Shown here piece after piece: positions 35,837-42,272 of a stretch of 42,272 nucleotides of DNA; position 1 is the stretch's first letter; every line of letters starts with the position of its first letter. This stretch comes from a virus: the IMG/VR virus record IMGVR_UViG_3300023083_000003, positions 1-42,272 of that record; one strand, 5' to 3'. The position numbers were made by a program, and so were the translations under genes. The notes under the pieces were generated by a model. It was given only the letters and a program-made list of their open reading frames with translations, was not told the DNA's origin and searched no databases.

Positions 35837-35888
35837 TGTTTTTAGTGTAAAGTCGTGTAAATGCAATATTGCAAAATGGGGGAAATAT

Positions 35889-35914
35889 TTTATGCATCAG
35901 TTTGCTCAAAAGGG
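35889..35914. repeat. 26-base direct repeat, copy 1
   Basis: Identical to 36064-36089; 175 bases apart start to start. The sequence begins TTTATGCATC and ends CAAAAGGG. In both copies it follows a nearby GCAATATTGCAAA block, so a segment of about 50 bases seems to have been duplicated around the AT-rich core. Confidence 0.9.
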
Positions 35915-35979
35915 GCAAATTGCGGAAATTGCAAATTCCCGTAGCCGGCATTAGGGTACTCTATAAAATATATAATATA

Positions 35980-35995
35980 AACTAAATATTTAGTT
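35980..35995. repeat. Perfect 16-base palindrome in AT-rich core
   Basis: AACTAAATATTTAGTT equals its own reverse complement. It lies in a run of TATA-like bases (35960-36020), midway between the duplicated arms, and could be a protein binding site or a site of local melting. Confidence 0.7.
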
Positions 35996-36063
35996 ATATA
36001 TACTTTATATATATTGTACCTCTTATTTCATGTTTTGGTTACGCAATATTGCAAAGTCTGCAA

Positions 36064-36089
36064 TTTATGCATCAGTTTGCTCAAAAGGG
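36064..36089. repeat. 26-base direct repeat, copy 2
   Basis: Exact second copy of 35889-35914. The flanks differ slightly: GCAATATTGCAAA precedes it closely here, and a further degenerate TTGCGGATATTGCA follows at about 36110. Confidence 0.9.
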
Positions 36090-36127
36090 CGTTTTCATAT
36101 TGTTTCATTTTGCGGATATTGCAGAAA

Positions 36128-36445
36128 TTAAATTGAATTTGCCAGGTTTGTTTCATCGTTTATCTGTTTAAGTTGGTTTTTCAGAGCGATATTTTGCGCG
36201 AAAAGGTGCTTGCATTCCGTTTGTAACGTGGCGTTTGCTGATGCCAGTAAATTAAACGTTTCGGTTATGTCCAATAATTTCAATAGCCTTTCCCGGCTTA
36301 CTTTTGCGCGTTCTGTCATGCCGTTTTTTGACACGTAATCAACGTTCTCCTGTAGCATCTCGCATACTATTGCCGTTATATGCGTCATGGCAACAGATGG
36401 CGTTAAAACGTCTATGCGTTGGGATTGTATGTAGGTGGGGGTCAT
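36128..36445 (-). CDS. Coiled-coil hypothetical protein upstream of candidate origin
   Basis: 105 residues. N-terminal half mixed (TYIQSQRIDVLTPSVAMTHI), then long helices (RAKVSRERLLKLLDITETFN; NATLQTECKHLFAQNIALKNQ). Ends at the edge of the repeat region. Could be a replication accessory; no motif. ATG overlaps the preceding stop (ATGA). Confidence 0.55.
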   Translation of the reverse strand: MTPTYIQSQRIDVLTPSVAMTHITAIVCEMLQENVDYVSKNGMTERAKVSRERLLKLLDITETFNLLASANATLQTECKHLFAQNIALKNQLKQINDETNLANSI

Positions 36446-36633
36446 AAACTTTTTATAACTTTTTCTGCATTTATCCTAAATCCATTTAATTCATTTTTAC
36501 TACATCCTTTGTAACAACTATCTATAAATGGAGTTAAGGCTTTTATCAAATCTTCAATAATTTCTTTCTGTTTGTTGACTTCTGCTTCTAACACCACGAT
36601 AGCCATATCTTTATCTAATTTTTTATAAATCAT
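36442..36633 (-). CDS. Small coiled-coil hypothetical protein
   Basis: 63 residues, one predicted helix with heptads (KDMAIVVLEAEVNKQKEIIE) plus DSCYKGCSKNELN with two cysteines. Coupled by ATGA on both sides. Function unknown. Confidence 0.55.
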   Translation of the reverse strand: MIYKKLDKDMAIVVLEAEVNKQKEIIEDLIKALTPFIDSCYKGCSKNELNGFRINAEKVIKSL

Positions 36634-37064
36634 ACCATTTCAAATAATAATTTTTGTTCAATAGGATGTTTATCAATTCTTGGACGACTTGGCACAGACC
36701 AAGAACCACCACCGCGTATACCAACTAAATGCCAATTGGAGGCCCTTAAACTTGCTCCATTTTCACTTTCTAAAATATAGGTTATTAGTTTTTTATATCC
36801 CATATTTTTTGCTATTCTCCAACATGCAGAATATAACATACTACAAGCGTTTTTAGTCCCATCTGTACACAATCTGGTAACCTCTGCTGTTATGCCATTT
36901 TGTAACATTCTTGCCACTGGCCTGCCTACTACAGCAACGCCGACTATTTTACCGTTTTCAACTACGCTAATCTGAAAAATACTACCAACTGGTTTCTTAT
37001 GGTGTCTATGATGTTGTGATATAAACTCAAATGCTTGTTTTTGAAATATTGGTGTAACTTCCAT
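36630..37064 (-). CDS. XF1762-family (GNAT-like) protein
   Basis: 144 residues from ATG 37064, immediately after the DUF3987 stop. The family signature is almost complete: ISQHHRHHKKPVGSIFQISV, GVAVVGRPVARMLQNG, AEVTRLCTDGTKNACSMLYS, RIAKNMGYKKLITYILES and GSWSVPSRPRID. The family is widespread in phages and resembles acetyltransferases, but no substrate is known. The upstream start at 37100 would overlap the previous gene. Confidence 0.85.
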   Translation of the reverse strand: MEVTPIFQKQAFEFISQHHRHHKKPVGSIFQISVVENGKIVGVAVVGRPVARMLQNGITAEVTRLCTDGTKNACSMLYSACWRIAKNMGYKKLITYILESENGASLRASNWHLVGIRGGGSWSVPSRPRIDKHPIEQKLLFEMV

Positions 37065-37065
37065 A

Positions 37066-38370
37066 TTAAAATAAATTTTTAGTGTATGTTCCGTGCCCAA
37101 CCTTGAATAATAATTTCGCTTCCGACCTTTCAGCGTTGGCCTTTAAGAAATCGTCAGCGGCCCGTTGCTTTAAGCCCATTTTACCGGCCTTAGTTACAAA
37201 TTCTAACCTTGTAAAATTAATCCCATGATCGGGTAATTGCATGTATAATTCTTTCCATTGGTCTTTAAGCATCTCAACGGGGCTTAATATCCTCACCTTT
37301 TGTGCCTGGTCAACAAAATATTTGCATAGTATCACCGCGCCATTTGCGGACTGTTCAGACACATGATAAACTAAATCAATATCACCCGATTCGGCATATT
37401 CCAATGCCTGTAATAGCAATGCAAATTTATGGATGTAAATTTCAATTTTAGCCAGAATACCGCGCAAATCATCATTAACGTCCGGCTGATTTTGAATATC
37501 AATAATAGCGCATTGGTACTCAAAGCATATCCGCCATGATTCTGGCGTGTAGGACATTTGATTATAATTAGCATCGTTAAATTCCAATGAAAGCATCCTG
37601 TTTATAATAGTTGTATATTTGGCTTCCTCAATCGGGTTGATACCAAATTGATTAGGGTATTGCTTTACGATATTTTCGGGCTGGGTAATTAGCCACCTAT
37701 CAAAAAAACCGCTACCCGTTTTACTGAAAAACACATCTCTTAATACCGATGGCTGTGTTGTGCCTATAATGGTTAAGTAGCTATGTTTTGCATATGCGCT
37801 TGCGCCATGCCCTATCCTATCGCGCAGGATAGTATCACCATTGAAAAGTGATAGATACATCTGTTCGTCCGCTCCGGAATTGTAACGGTTAAACCGGCCT
37901 ACAAACCCCGCTAATTCATCATAAACTATGCCGCAGCCTTTAGGGTTTTCGGATAGCGTTATGATTAGCTTTTCGGGTGTCGTATCGCTTAATATTACCC
38001 TTTTTGGCGGTGCTAATTCCTGTGTTTTAGCCTTTGGGTTATTCTGTTTAAACTCGTCAATTTCCTGCTGATCTGCTTTGTGCCGTTCGTTAATTTCAAA
38101 TTGATACCGCTTAATTGGTTTAAATGCGTCTGTTAGAGGTTCAGATTTAACCTGCCCCCTCTTGCCTAAGATAATACACCAAATACTTGCTATTGCCTGG
38201 TAGTTTCCAGTGGTTAGTGTAACAGATCTACCCAATGCAGTACTGGCCGCGCCCAAAAAAGCCGTTATAAAAAATTCGGCAGGATAACCTTTAGCCTCGG
38301 AGTAATGGTATATAATCTTTTGCATTTCTTCGCTAAATGCGTTTATTGGGTGCTGTATATTATCTTGCAT
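37066..38370 (-). CDS. DUF3987 ATPase (primase-helicase-like)
   Basis: 434 residues. Modified Walker A LGKRGQVKS at 68-76 (Gly-Lys-Arg-Gly-x-x-Lys-Ser), Walker B IVYDELAGF with Asp151-Glu152 and a sensor-like GTTQPS segment. DUF3987 proteins are predicted AAA-type ATPases found beside primase or replication genes in phages and plasmids. It probably unwinds or loads DNA at the phage origin. An N-terminal primase domain is not visible, so this is the ATPase part only. Expressed in the replication operon. Confidence 0.75.
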   Translation of the reverse strand: MQDNIQHPINAFSEEMQKIIYHYSEAKGYPAEFFITAFLGAASTALGRSVTLTTGNYQAIASIWCIILGKRGQVKSEPLTDAFKPIKRYQFEINERHKADQQEIDEFKQNNPKAKTQELAPPKRVILSDTTPEKLIITLSENPKGCGIVYDELAGFVGRFNRYNSGADEQMYLSLFNGDTILRDRIGHGASAYAKHSYLTIIGTTQPSVLRDVFFSKTGSGFFDRWLITQPENIVKQYPNQFGINPIEEAKYTTIINRMLSLEFNDANYNQMSYTPESWRICFEYQCAIIDIQNQPDVNDDLRGILAKIEIYIHKFALLLQALEYAESGDIDLVYHVSEQSANGAVILCKYFVDQAQKVRILSPVEMLKDQWKELYMQLPDHGINFTRLEFVTKAGKMGLKQRAADDFLKANAERSEAKLLFKVGHGTYTKNLF

Positions 38371-38403: not shown

Positions 38404-38568
38404 TTATAACTGAATAAATTTTCTGCCTGATATCTCAACCAGATTAATTTCCTTTCGCTTGACCTCATCCTTTAGCCAATTATATACCGTCTGCCTTTCG
38501 ACACCCATTAATTTTGCATAATCAGGAATTGATAGTAATTTAGTCTTATCGACCATTTTTGTTTCCAT
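38404..38568 (-). CDS. Small excisionase/MerR-like helix-turn-helix protein
   Basis: 54 residues. LLSIPDYAKLMGVERQTVYN is a helix-turn-helix of the MerR/excisionase kind (helices around Tyr-Ala-Lys-Leu and Thr-Val-Tyr-Asn), and VEISGRKFIQL closes the winged part. No integrase was seen, so a role as a replication or transcription regulator is more likely than excision. Its start lies 4 bases after a TATATTAG box, and four GTGTAAAA repeats lie just upstream (38583-38649). It may bind them and regulate itself. Confidence 0.65.
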   Translation of the reverse strand: METKMVDKTKLLSIPDYAKLMGVERQTVYNWLKDEVKRKEINLVEISGRKFIQL

Positions 38569-38582
38569 GTAGCTAATATAGT

Positions 38583-38649
38583 AATTATTTTACACTTTGT
38601 ATGATTATTTTACACAAAAACAGGCTTTTACACCTGCTTTATTTTACAC
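38583..38649. repeat. Four DnaA-box-like repeats (TTTTACAC), candidate iterons
   Basis: ATTATTTTACAC at 38584-38595 and 38604-38615, TTTTACAC at 38626-38633 and ATTTTACAC at 38641-38649 are in the same orientation with starts 20, about 18 and 16 bases apart. The second copy continues TTTTACACA, a full match to the relaxed DnaA box TTWTNCACA; the others match 8 of 9. They fill the 95-base gap between the HTH gene and the gene after the DnaA-like protein. They may be DnaA boxes, binding sites for the HTH protein, or both. Confidence 0.65.
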
Positions 38650-38663
38650 CAAATACCCCACAA

Positions 38664-38840
38664 TTACAAATGTTTCTTACGTAGTCGGTATATCTTATTT
38701 TGCCTATGTCGTTCAGCCATCCTTTTACGGATTAAAAATTCCTCTTTAACTTTACAATTTTCAAGCATAACTACATCTCTAAAGTCACACAAACCACCAC
38801 ATGAAATTATAAGATCGTTAATGTTTTGGTTATTTGTCAT
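38664..38840 (-). CDS. Small basic hypothetical protein after the DnaA-like gene
   Basis: 58 residues from ATG 38840. IISCGGLCDFRDVVMLENCK with three cysteines, then a basic tail (RKRMAERHRQNKIYRLRKKHL). The basic tail suggests nucleic-acid binding. It overlaps the DnaA-like gene by 11 bases. A longer start at 38915 is deeper in that gene and not used. Confidence 0.5.
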   Translation of the reverse strand: MTNNQNINDLIISCGGLCDFRDVVMLENCKVKEEFLIRKRMAERHRQNKIYRLRKKHL

Positions 38841-39246
38841 TGCTGAATGTTTTAATAAGGTACAATAATTTTGAACGAAATGAATAATCCGTTTCTGATA
38901 GGTTTCTAACCACATTACAGCTATTCATTACAGTTGAATGATCTCGGTTGAAAAATATGCCAATATCTTTAAAGGTGAATTTATAAACACTATACCCAAT
39001 GTACATGCAAATATTTCTGGTTTTTACAATATCATTTTTTCTGCTTTTAGATTGCAGGTCAAATAATGTCAATCCAGCCTGACCCAATATAATAGCACAC
39101 ATTACAGACATTTTAGCGTTGTCAAATCTTTTAGTCATCCCTTTAACAGCGTTTAATCCTAAAGGTAACCCTACGTATGTCATTGGATGTATAATAACCC
39201 TTGTGGATATTTTAGTGGAGGTGTCTAAGTTGAAATACTCTTTCAT
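38830..39246 (-). CDS. DnaA domain-IV-only protein (DnaA-box-binding domain)
   Basis: 138 residues. The last two thirds match DnaA domain IV: KTRNICMYIGYSVYKFTFKDIGIFFNRDHSTVM (region about 76-107), with the DnaA signature RDHSTV at 101-106 corresponding to the bacterial GRDHTTVLHA loop whose His/Thr residues contact the box. Domains I-III (helicase loading and AAA+ ATPase) are absent. Likely functions: bind phage or host DnaA boxes, compete with host DnaA, or recruit it. Encoded next to the DnaA-box-like repeats and in the same operon as dnaN. Confidence 0.8.
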   Translation of the reverse strand: MKEYFNLDTSTKISTRVIIHPMTYVGLPLGLNAVKGMTKRFDNAKMSVMCAIILGQAGLTLFDLQSKSRKNDIVKTRNICMYIGYSVYKFTFKDIGIFFNRDHSTVMNSCNVVRNLSETDYSFRSKLLYLIKTFSNDK

Positions 39247-39277: not shown

Positions 39278-41461
39278 TCATAGTAATAATAATTGATCTT
39301 TACCTAATTCAGCATTGGCGCAATTTTTACCGGCCAATTCAAAGTAAGAAGTTTTTAACTCGCCGCCTAATCCTTTCCGACCCATTTTGATAGACTGGTA
39401 TAATTCACTACCAATTCCTAAAAAAGGAGTATAAACGGTATCTCCCTCATTTGTCCATAAATGCAGGCTACGCTCAATGGTATCTAATTGCAATGGGCAT
39501 ATATGCTTCTCATCTTTTTCATCGCGAGCGCCCTTTAAATTAAGTGTGTTGGAATAATCAATATCCATCCATACGGGTGAAGCTATTTTTTGCCACATAT
39601 CAACAGGTAGATAACCCGGCGCTAATGAATCTTTATCCTGGTGTATAACAGGGTGCGAATGTTCGCCTGGCTTCCTAAAAACCATTAAGTAATCAGGTAT
39701 GCCAACGCGCGACATAGCAGCATCTTTTTTAATTTGCTTATGTAGTAACCCTAATGCTTTTGTACGGGTCATTTCAGTAACTGGGTTTTTCCATAAGGTA
39801 ACACGCGAATGATAAATAAATCCGGCATCTGAAAATGCTTTTAATATCATGCCGCTAAAGTCACGCAGTCCTATATAACCCTCTTTACCTTTCTGTATAG
39901 GCAAATCCATGCAATGTACAGCCACATTACGGCCCGACCATAGTATTCTGTATAAATCCCGAACAATAAAATTAAAAGCATATAGGAACTCATTATAATC
40001 TTTAGAGTTACCCATATCCTCTAATTCAGAGCTGTATGTGTATAATTCAGCGAAAGGCGGGGAAAATATAGAAAACCCAACACTTTCATCGGGTATATTT
40101 TTAATAGTTTTAACGCTATCGCCTAACCATATTTCATAGTTATCGCCTTTAAGAGTTTTTACTCCGCGATCCTTAATTTCACCTTTTTCAGATTTAATAT
40201 TTTTCATAACTGCTTTAGCCATTGATTGTTGCATGTGTTCAAATTGCTTTTGTTTCTTGTAGATAGATTGAATAACGTTTTGCATGGTATCTGTCACCAA
40301 AATATAAATATTAACAGCATGTTGCTGGCCGAACCTGTAAGATCTTCTAACGCCTTGATATAACCCCTCAAAGCTAAAATCCGGGCTTGCAAATATTTGG
40401 TTATGGCAATTTTGATAATTCATGCCCATTGCTGCAATTTTAGTTTTAGTAATCAATACCCTAAACTCATTATTAGCAAATCCTAATAACTTTTCTTTTT
40501 TGTACTCCGGCGTATCGCTACCTTGAACATTTACAGAGCCGGGAATTAGTTTTCGTAATTCCTCGGCCTCATCATTATGCTTTACCCAAACTATAAACGT
40601 TTCTGTTGAGTTGTTTACAATGCCTATAACTTCTTCAATGCGTTCTACTTTAGTCAGGCGAAGCTCCCCGTTGAAATTGGTTGCGCTAACTGCCAGATCG
40701 TTAAACATCTTATAGTCATCACGGGTGTTGGTTTTTATTTGCCGCTCTATTAGGTTTAACTCTGGTAGATTATACCCCGGCATAGGAAAGCCAATATCAT
40801 CCGGCTTTGACAACATGATAGCCCATTCAGACACCCATTCATAGAAGCGTTCTTTAGCATGCCCTTTTAATCGCCATTTAGCGGTATCGCCACCATCATG
40901 CACAAAGTACATAGCAAGCATCTCGTTATACGGCATCACGTTTAAGAACTCGCTATGGTTGCCCAACTCCATTGGGTCATTTGGGCTTGGCGTTGCGGTG
41001 CATGCGAGCTTATAGGGAGTATCAGCAAATGATTGGATTATTAAATCTCGGGTTGCACCGTCAAAGTTTTTAATAATGCTGGATTCATCAAGAACAACGC
41101 CTATATATTTTGAACAGTTAACGTTATGGAGTTGCTCATAATTAAAAATGTCAATATTATTTAGTGAAATATTGAAAACATTTGCCTCGCGTTCGGTTTG
41201 CGCCACAACAGCCAATGGCGCAAGTATTAAAACCTTACCTCCGGTTTGTTCTGAAACTCTATATGCCCATTCCAGTTGCATAAAGCTCTTGCCTAAACCA
41301 CAATCAGCGAATACGGCGAATTTACCTTTCCGTAATGCGGTTTGTACAATAAAAGCCTGAAATGGGAATAATAGGGAGTTAAGTTCTGATGTTTCGATGT
41401 GAAAGCCGCCGTCTGTAAATTTGCGGCGCTTTGTTTCTAAAAAATTATCGTAATCGGTCAT
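39278..41461 (-). CDS. SNF2-like helicase fused to beta-class DNA methyltransferase
   Basis: 727 residues. N-terminal helicase: Walker A DCGLGKSF at 53-60, DEAH-like LDESS at 124-128, TATPSP at 155-160, and motif VI GVRRSYRFGQ at 370-379. C-terminal methyltransferase: catalytic SPPF at 467-470 in ISPP-type context and the AdoMet-binding-like TPFLGIGSE at 678-686; order IV then I gives the circularly permuted beta class (N4-cytosine or N6-adenine). Phage helicase-methylase fusions are known, for example the P1 DarB type, and protect DNA from restriction. A structured hairpin lies just upstream. Confidence 0.8.
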   Translation of the reverse strand: MTDYDNFLETKRRKFTDGGFHIETSELNSLLFPFQAFIVQTALRKGKFAVFADCGLGKSFMQLEWAYRVSEQTGGKVLILAPLAVVAQTEREANVFNISLNNIDIFNYEQLHNVNCSKYIGVVLDESSIIKNFDGATRDLIIQSFADTPYKLACTATPSPNDPMELGNHSEFLNVMPYNEMLAMYFVHDGGDTAKWRLKGHAKERFYEWVSEWAIMLSKPDDIGFPMPGYNLPELNLIERQIKTNTRDDYKMFNDLAVSATNFNGELRLTKVERIEEVIGIVNNSTETFIVWVKHNDEAEELRKLIPGSVNVQGSDTPEYKKEKLLGFANNEFRVLITKTKIAAMGMNYQNCHNQIFASPDFSFEGLYQGVRRSYRFGQQHAVNIYILVTDTMQNVIQSIYKKQKQFEHMQQSMAKAVMKNIKSEKGEIKDRGVKTLKGDNYEIWLGDSVKTIKNIPDESVGFSIFSPPFAELYTYSSELEDMGNSKDYNEFLYAFNFIVRDLYRILWSGRNVAVHCMDLPIQKGKEGYIGLRDFSGMILKAFSDAGFIYHSRVTLWKNPVTEMTRTKALGLLHKQIKKDAAMSRVGIPDYLMVFRKPGEHSHPVIHQDKDSLAPGYLPVDMWQKIASPVWMDIDYSNTLNLKGARDEKDEKHICPLQLDTIERSLHLWTNEGDTVYTPFLGIGSELYQSIKMGRKGLGGELKTSYFELAGKNCANAELGKDQLLLL

Positions 41462-41562: not shown

Positions 41563-42272
41563 TTAATTCTTTAACATTGCAGGCATAATGAGAAATAATT
41601 CATTATCTTTTTTTGTCATAATCGCTCTATTATGGGCAGACATTTGGAATGTTAAAACATCATCATCCACACGCGATAAAACATCAGCCAGGTACTTTGC
41701 ATTTAATCCAATAGTTAACTCGCCGCCAGAACAAGCAACGGTTTCATAACCCTTTAGTTTTAATCCTGCATCCCCGCTTGATATGTTTAATTTATCAGCG
41801 AAATCCATTTTTAATGTCAAGGTTTCCCGGTTTGCAAATGTCATGGTGCGTTTTACAGCGGCCAATAAATGCCCCCTGCTAACTTCGCTTTGAATAGGAT
41901 TATCTTTAGGAATAACGCTGTCGACATCCGGGTAATCCATATCTACTAATGTGCATATAATAGATGTATTTTCGCAATAAAAACCAATGGTGTTTTTAGA
42001 AATAATTACGGATATATCACCCTCTAATTCAGATAGAATAGGTATTGATTTTGAGGGGATCATTAAATCGGCAGTCACATTGCCATTGATAACATGCGTA
42101 ATATCACAAAGCACATGCCTGTTACATGTAGTTATTCTTAGTTGATTAGGGGTTATTTTAACAGATAAACACCCTAGCGGTAAAGAACTATCATCATCAA
42201 TAGCAAATGCAGCCTTTTTAATTGACGCAGCAAAATCAGTCCCATTTATCACTAAGGTTTTTTTAGTGTCAT
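41563..42272 (-). CDS. dnaN: DNA polymerase III beta subunit (sliding clamp), C-terminal part, continues at position 479-1
   Basis: Middle and C-terminal clamp domains. Read with the piece at 1-479, the reading frame continues across the join with no break (bases 42146-42272 repeat 1-127). Motifs: LTLKMDFADKLNISSGDAG and GGELTIGLNAKYLADVLSRV, the strand-helix pattern of domain 3, and the ending ELFLIMPAML, as in bacterial DnaN. The C-terminal groove that binds clamp-binding peptides appears intact. The next gene in transcription order is the helicase-methyltransferase. Confidence 0.9.
   Translation of the reverse strand, partial: DTKKTLVINGTDFAASIKKAAFAIDDDSSLPLGCLSVKITPNQLRITTCNRHVLCDITHVINGNVTADLMIPSKSIPILSELEGDISVIISKNTIGFYCENTSIICTLVDMDYPDVDSVIPKDNPIQSEVSRGHLLAAVKRTMTFANRETLTLKMDFADKLNISSGDAGLKLKGYETVACSGGELTIGLNAKYLADVLSRVDDDVLTFQMSAHNRAIMTKKDNELFLIMPAMLKN
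42146..42272. repeat. Terminal direct repeat, right copy
   Basis: Identical to bases 1-127. See the entry at 1-127. The clamp reading frame is continuous through this copy, confirming that the two copies are the same locus. Confidence 0.95.

Follow-up and report, generated by a model that had tools for sequence, protein, structure and literature searches.

The window analysed here is a stretch of 42,272 nucleotides from a Bacteroidota siphophage, whose terminase is 42% identical to that of Flavobacterium phages; the host assignment holds at the level of phylum. A 127-bp direct repeat is shared by the contig ends (1-127 and 42146-42272), and because the clamp gene runs across both of them, the genome is circular or terminally redundant. 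A replication module on the minus strand contains, in order, a YqaJ exonuclease, a DNA polymerase III beta clamp (41563..42272, with the remainder at 3-479, past the contig ends; recognised from its ORF, the end repeat and Pfam), an SNF2-type helicase fused to a DNA methylase (39278..41461; Pfam and PHROG matches), a 138-aa protein (38830..39246), a 58-aa basic ORF that overlaps the end of the preceding gene and has no family match (38664..38840), a 95-bp gap, a 54-aa helix-turn-helix (HTH) protein (38404..38568), a DUF3987 protein (37066..38370) and, right after it, a Mom-like DNA modification protein (36630..37100; Pfam, phrog_1384). The initial annotation had placed a beta clamp and a DUF3987 ATPase near the 138-aa gene, and Pfam identifies both. 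Both a clamp and an MCM-like DUF3987 putative helicase are thus provided by the phage itself; of the phage proteins scanned, none was recognised as a DNA polymerase. Elsewhere in the genome, a divergent intergenic region (2318-2683) coincides with its least stable 100 bp and carries weak repeats only, with no array noted.

The 138-aa protein is authentic DnaA domain IV, with neither the ATPase nor the helicase-recruiting domain. It matches Bac_DnaA_C (PF08299) at 58.4 bits, well above the cut-off of 31.5; no other Pfam domain scored above cut-off and the AAA+ domain is absent, such that AAA+ domain III and the helicase-recruiting domain I of a full DnaA initiator are both missing. Residues ~41-136 make up the DNA-binding domain, while residues 1-30 are predicted to be disordered. 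The AlphaFold model has a mean pLDDT of 79 (residues 41-130 reach about 85 or higher) and aligns by Foldseek with 1j1v and 3pvp (TM to target 0.88 and 0.85, respectively); among solved structures, 1j1v, in which E. coli DnaA domain IV is bound to its box, is also the closest in sequence. Box binding needs no more than domain IV (PMC4588119). Within the E. coli protein, the TTA half of the box is read through the minor groove by R399, and TnCACA by the helix at 434-451 (PMC5742627). The box-reading residues R399, D433, H434 and T436 are kept in the phage protein, as is R407, with T435 replaced by S and K415 by Y. The description of this protein as carrying only the DnaA box-binding domain is thus upheld by its Pfam match, its fold and its residues.

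Four co-oriented TTTTACAC repeats (38588..38649, plus strand; starts at 38588, 38608, 38626 and 38642, spacings 20, 18 and 16) lie 180 bp downstream of the DnaA domain IV (DnaA-IV) gene and precede the start codon of the 54-aa HTH gene (ATG at 38568) by 20-81 bp, and they read GTGTAAAA in the operon sense. All four match the TTWTNCAC core at 8 of 8 positions. The full TTWTNCACA box is found in the copy at 38608 only, the final A being missing from the other three, exactly as first described. This cluster lies beyond chance: TTTTACAC is the sole 8-mer in the window with four copies inside 80 bp (none in 200 shuffles), four co-oriented TTWTNCAC within 62 bp arose in 0 of 300 whole-genome shuffles and 0 of 20,000 gap shuffles, and no other cluster of its kind exists in the genome. 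A genome-wide motif scan revealed no general excess (TTWTNCACA, 5 seen versus 6.5 expected; TTWTNCAC, 20 versus 20.3). The 95-bp gap that holds the array is non-coding and 28% GC (5th percentile), and the 100 bp from 38518 rank within the dozen stretches of lowest stability in the genome, sites at 2316 and 35950 being less stable. A possible -7 promoter element, TATATTAG (38573..38580, minus strand), sits 12 bp before the HTH ATG, and the two nearest repeats might perhaps cover its upstream half. GC skew, which had been suggested as a check for an origin, proved uninformative; it tracks gene orientation (raw minimum 42030, detrended minimum 40970), with no switch at 38.6 kb.

Stand-alone DnaA-IV proteins recur in other phages. 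Single-sequence scans of viral contigs with the 138-aa, 54-aa HTH and DUF3987 proteins returned no relatives, and queries built from alignments did. DnaA-IV was found in pelagiphages and a Bradyrhizobium prophage, in 41 of the 80 DUF3987 loci kept for comparison (see below), in 8 loci from related phages of the helicase/methylase type and in another 32 viral contigs. Several human-gut 'phage' matches were left out; they look like bacterial contigs because they encode a full-length DnaA. Neighbouring genes include a PriCT primase-helicase (L190), a Toprim/DnaB-like helicase (L199), an AAA ATPase (L194) and an SF2 helicase (L169), and the DnaA-IV gene often lies just 5' of the repeat array of a DUF3987 helicase. 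Because this type of gene recurs in the replication modules of unrelated phages, the 41 DUF3987 loci included, the 138-aa protein probably plays an accessory part in phage replication or its timing, which agrees with the replication role first proposed for it. The recognition residues diverge in many members of the family. A DnaA-IV-like protein of a Bacteroides pyogenes prophage (L094:10535-10897) has KSRMT in place of the RDHTT signature, suggesting from its sequence that box reading has been lost or changed. In another protein (L194:3851-4540), DnaA domain IV and a MazG-like pyrophosphohydrolase form a single fusion.

We found no general enrichment of DnaA-boxes near phage DnaA-IV genes (TTWTNCACA, 0.08 per kb near them versus 0.13 elsewhere). 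Triple clusters of TTTTACAC occurred in 52 viral contigs versus 18 for the reversed pattern CACATTTT, with one repeated 15-mer family inflating the 52, and a DnaA-IV was detected in none of the 52. Absence of DnaA-IV from such records is no proof, because most of the viral records compared are fragments. A second case of the anatomy first noted here is the L190 family, with another motif: in L188-L190, L197 and L200 a conserved TTATCGTCA/TGACGATAA array occupies a ~220-bp gap between DnaA-IV and a BT4734/PriCT primase-helicase, and the motif is almost absent from these loci outside the gap. This position, between DnaA-IV and the primase, favours DnaA-IV as the array binder in that family. Repeats in L193 were rejected as an array, being coding repeats of a pentapeptide-like protein, and a TTATCCACA pair considered as a locator of oriC in Sphingobacterium proved to be inside a coding region, with no oriC located.

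The DUF3987 protein is a putative replicative helicase with an MCM-like AAA+ fold and a C-terminal winged HTH (~365-434). It matches PF13148 at 149 bits and phrog_2373 (DNA helicase), and the top 50 hits of a fold search were all MCM proteins, with modest TM scores to the query (0.33-0.45). DUF3987 has previously been predicted to be a helicase of mobile elements (PMC5862659). The comparison set of 80 loci was fetched by similarity to DUF3987 and not by DnaA-IV, with several hundred more loci beyond it. A non-coding repeat array lies within 500 bp of DUF3987 in 57 of the 80, an association that was not found in the literature searched and is described here from these loci. When they were grouped into lineages by DUF3987 identity, arrays were present in 6 of 8 lineages with DnaA-IV and in 15 of 20 without it. 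The same motif accompanied the same HTH across lineages with and without DnaA-IV (L258/L288, GGTTACAC; L302/L264, TTTCACACC). Array motifs, built from the commonest 7-mer, tracked the DUF3987 C-terminal HTH when the core domain was controlled (partial Mantel r 0.35, p 0.0002, 22 lineages related by descent), and the reverse test, of the core domain with the HTH controlled, gave -0.14. The array preceded the helicase, on the same side as DnaA-IV, in 6 of 6 array-bearing lineages with DnaA-IV; among those without DnaA-IV it was upstream in 8 of 15. Two further loci, L013:10016-10301 (GTTATGCA/TGCATAAG) and L085:4861-5117 (GTTTACAC), have arrays that flank a very AT-rich core right after DUF3987, which, judged by base composition and repeats, is the layout of a replication origin.

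These comparisons speak against the proposal that the 38.6-kb array marks an origin through DnaA-IV, since arrays of the same kind adjoin DUF3987 in lineages that lack DnaA-IV and the array motif follows the DUF3987 C-terminal HTH. Moreover, the array predicted by the class of this phage's DUF3987 protein sits elsewhere. Its winged HTH belongs to a class whose arrays are downstream and of TTGCA, GTATAAC or AAAGTT type, those in L013, L278, L253 and L254 being TTGCA-type. Its closest relatives, L253 and L254 (61-63%), have a downstream TGCA-type array, and their records contain no DnaA-IV, no 54-aa HTH and no TTTTACAC array. The corresponding feature of this phage is a GCAA/TTGC array around an AT-rich core at 35867..36127, the better origin candidate as judged from motif count, stability and relatives. 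This is the densest stretch of the motif in the genome, with 14 copies seen versus 5.1 expected (0 of 5000 shuffles, a p-value that is somewhat optimistic because the motif was picked after viewing the relatives and the sequence). In the middle of the array, from 35964, are the 50 bp with the lowest stability in the genome. A 26-bp direct repeat, CCCTTTTGAGCAAACTGATGCATAAA, is found at about 36089-36064 and 35914-35889, and 18 bp match L254 exactly. A 105-aa protein (36128..36445, minus strand) flanks the candidate, and its homologue flanks the corresponding array of L253. The phage thus has a DUF3987 protein with a C-terminal HTH beside a non-coding array, and we consider 35867-36127 more likely to be the replication origin than the 38.6-kb site about 2.5 kb away. 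Two further TTTACAC copies, 10 bp apart (35845..35861, minus strand), are located at the edge of the candidate and could link whichever protein binds TTTACAC to it.

The 54-aa HTH protein, encoded on the minus strand immediately beyond the array, is the best-predicted binder of TTTTACAC. Its Pfam HTH matches are sub-threshold only, and no close homologue was found among the viral contigs scanned. It resembles a class of DUF3987 C-terminal HTHs other than the phage's own; its best matches are those of L322 and L319, where the arrays are ACTTTACACT. Across 22 lineages, similarity to the 54-aa HTH ranks with TTTACAC copy number (Spearman rho 0.75, p 5e-5, which is optimistic because lineages share descent). 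Its resemblance to DUF3987 HTHs that accompany TTTACAC arrays favours it over DnaA-IV as the reader of TTTTACAC, and the array is most likely a predicted operator or set of iterons for the 54-aa HTH, controlling the helicase operon.

From the observed domain and fold, the repeats, the arrays of relatives, the covariation of motif with HTH and the conserved second array, we infer who binds what and each functional step. The 54-aa HTH would bind the TTTTACAC array in its own promoter and so autoregulate the HTH-DUF3987 operon, the C-terminal winged HTH of DUF3987 would read the TTGCA-type repeats around the AT-rich core at 35867-36127, and the DnaA-IV protein would assist phage replication or its timing. 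We hold this joint reading, with the HTH reading TTTTACAC as an operator, the origin at 35867-36127 and DnaA-IV as an accessory factor, as our leading explanation, at somewhat less than even confidence. Several observations weigh against it: the DnaA core is matched by all four repeats, whose neighbouring protein keeps the box-reading residues, the 54-aa HTH has no above-threshold Pfam match and no close homologue was found for it, the Mantel and Spearman lineages are related by descent with motifs taken from the top 7-mer, the L190-family array favours DnaA-IV as binder there, and the absence of DnaA-IV from records is no proof as most are fragments.

The second candidate binder of TTTTACAC is DnaA-IV itself, which would then mark the phage origin or regulate the HTH-DUF3987 operon. 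The core match, the kept R399, D433, H434 and T436, the consistently upstream arrays of DnaA-IV lineages, the L190-family array and the TTTACAC pair beside the 35.9-kb candidate all favour this possibility. It is nevertheless a good deal less probable than the joint reading, as identical motifs occur in lineages without DnaA-IV, boxes are not enriched near other DnaA-IV genes, none of the 52 contigs with triple clusters has a detected DnaA-IV, one copy of four has the final A of the box, and the array/AT-core/array layout is missing at 38.6 kb. The repeats could instead be a second iteron set for the phage's own DUF3987 winged HTH, since most relatives have arrays adjoining DUF3987, with motifs that this one resembles; this appears unlikely given that its HTH is of the other class, with downstream arrays of different motif, and that the class-predicted array is already present at 35.9 kb.

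Two readings that involve the host are less probable still. Host DnaA, always available, might bind the array, whose motif fits the core, and aid phage initiation or regulate the operon; array motifs that vary with the phage-encoded HTH are unexpected for a single host factor, and with the final A missing from three copies we regard this as quite improbable. The initial annotation also raised the possibility that DnaA-IV occupies host boxes to stop host initiation. Domain IV suffices for box binding and the phage domain shares 32-45% identity with host-type DnaA, but nothing specific supports such a takeover. The gene sits in replication modules by helicases and arrays across unrelated phages, and many members differ in their recognition residues, which does not fit a decoy aimed at a universal host box. 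We give this reading equally little credence.

More broadly, DUF3987 proteins may be MCM-like helicases that locate their own origins via the C-terminal HTH and lineage-specific repeats, with a stand-alone DnaA-IV added beside the array in many such phages and, in the phage described here, a detached 54-aa HTH and its array as a further layer of control, a generalisation that we put forward as possible though doubtful. If true, the initiation system would combine an MCM-like helicase with the DNA-binding domain of DnaA without the DnaA ATPase. DUF3987 is common in phages and mobile elements and is a predicted helicase for which no experimental test was found in the literature; with array sequence tied to its own HTH, both its origin and its DNA target become directly testable. 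An origin search guided by the DnaA-boxes at 38.6 kb would go about 2.5 kb astray. The analysis also provides a context for the many stand-alone phage DnaA domain IV proteins annotated without a function.

Comparisons can be drawn with several known systems. In the archaeal plasmid pRN1, a small repressor gene (orf56) likewise precedes the replication gene (orf904); the two share an operon, whose promoter region is short and essential (PMC4234260). The pRN1 proteins are unrelated to those of this phage and the likeness is one of analogy only. DUF3987 mobile-element helicases (PF13148; PMC5862659) share the domain and the predicted replicative helicase role, differing in that DUF3987 is described there as a domain fused to primases, whereas in this phage a C-terminal winged HTH completes a DUF3987 protein of 434 aa. 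Among phages, stand-alone DnaA-like proteins (phrog_27829; pelagiphages HTVC010P, HTVC204P and Skadi; PMC6811365) likewise consist of domain IV only and lie in a lytic replication region. Their domain is only about 40% identical to that of this phage, and HTVC204P and Skadi-4, unlike the phage described here, have no box array near the DnaA-like gene and no annotated DUF3987. Compared with E. coli DnaA (PF08299, 1j1v), the phage protein lacks domains I-III, has a disordered N-terminus, carries the K415 to Y and T435 to S changes and is 24% identical to domain IV in a structural alignment, and yet it shares the fold, the RDHxTV signature and the R399 and H434 positions.
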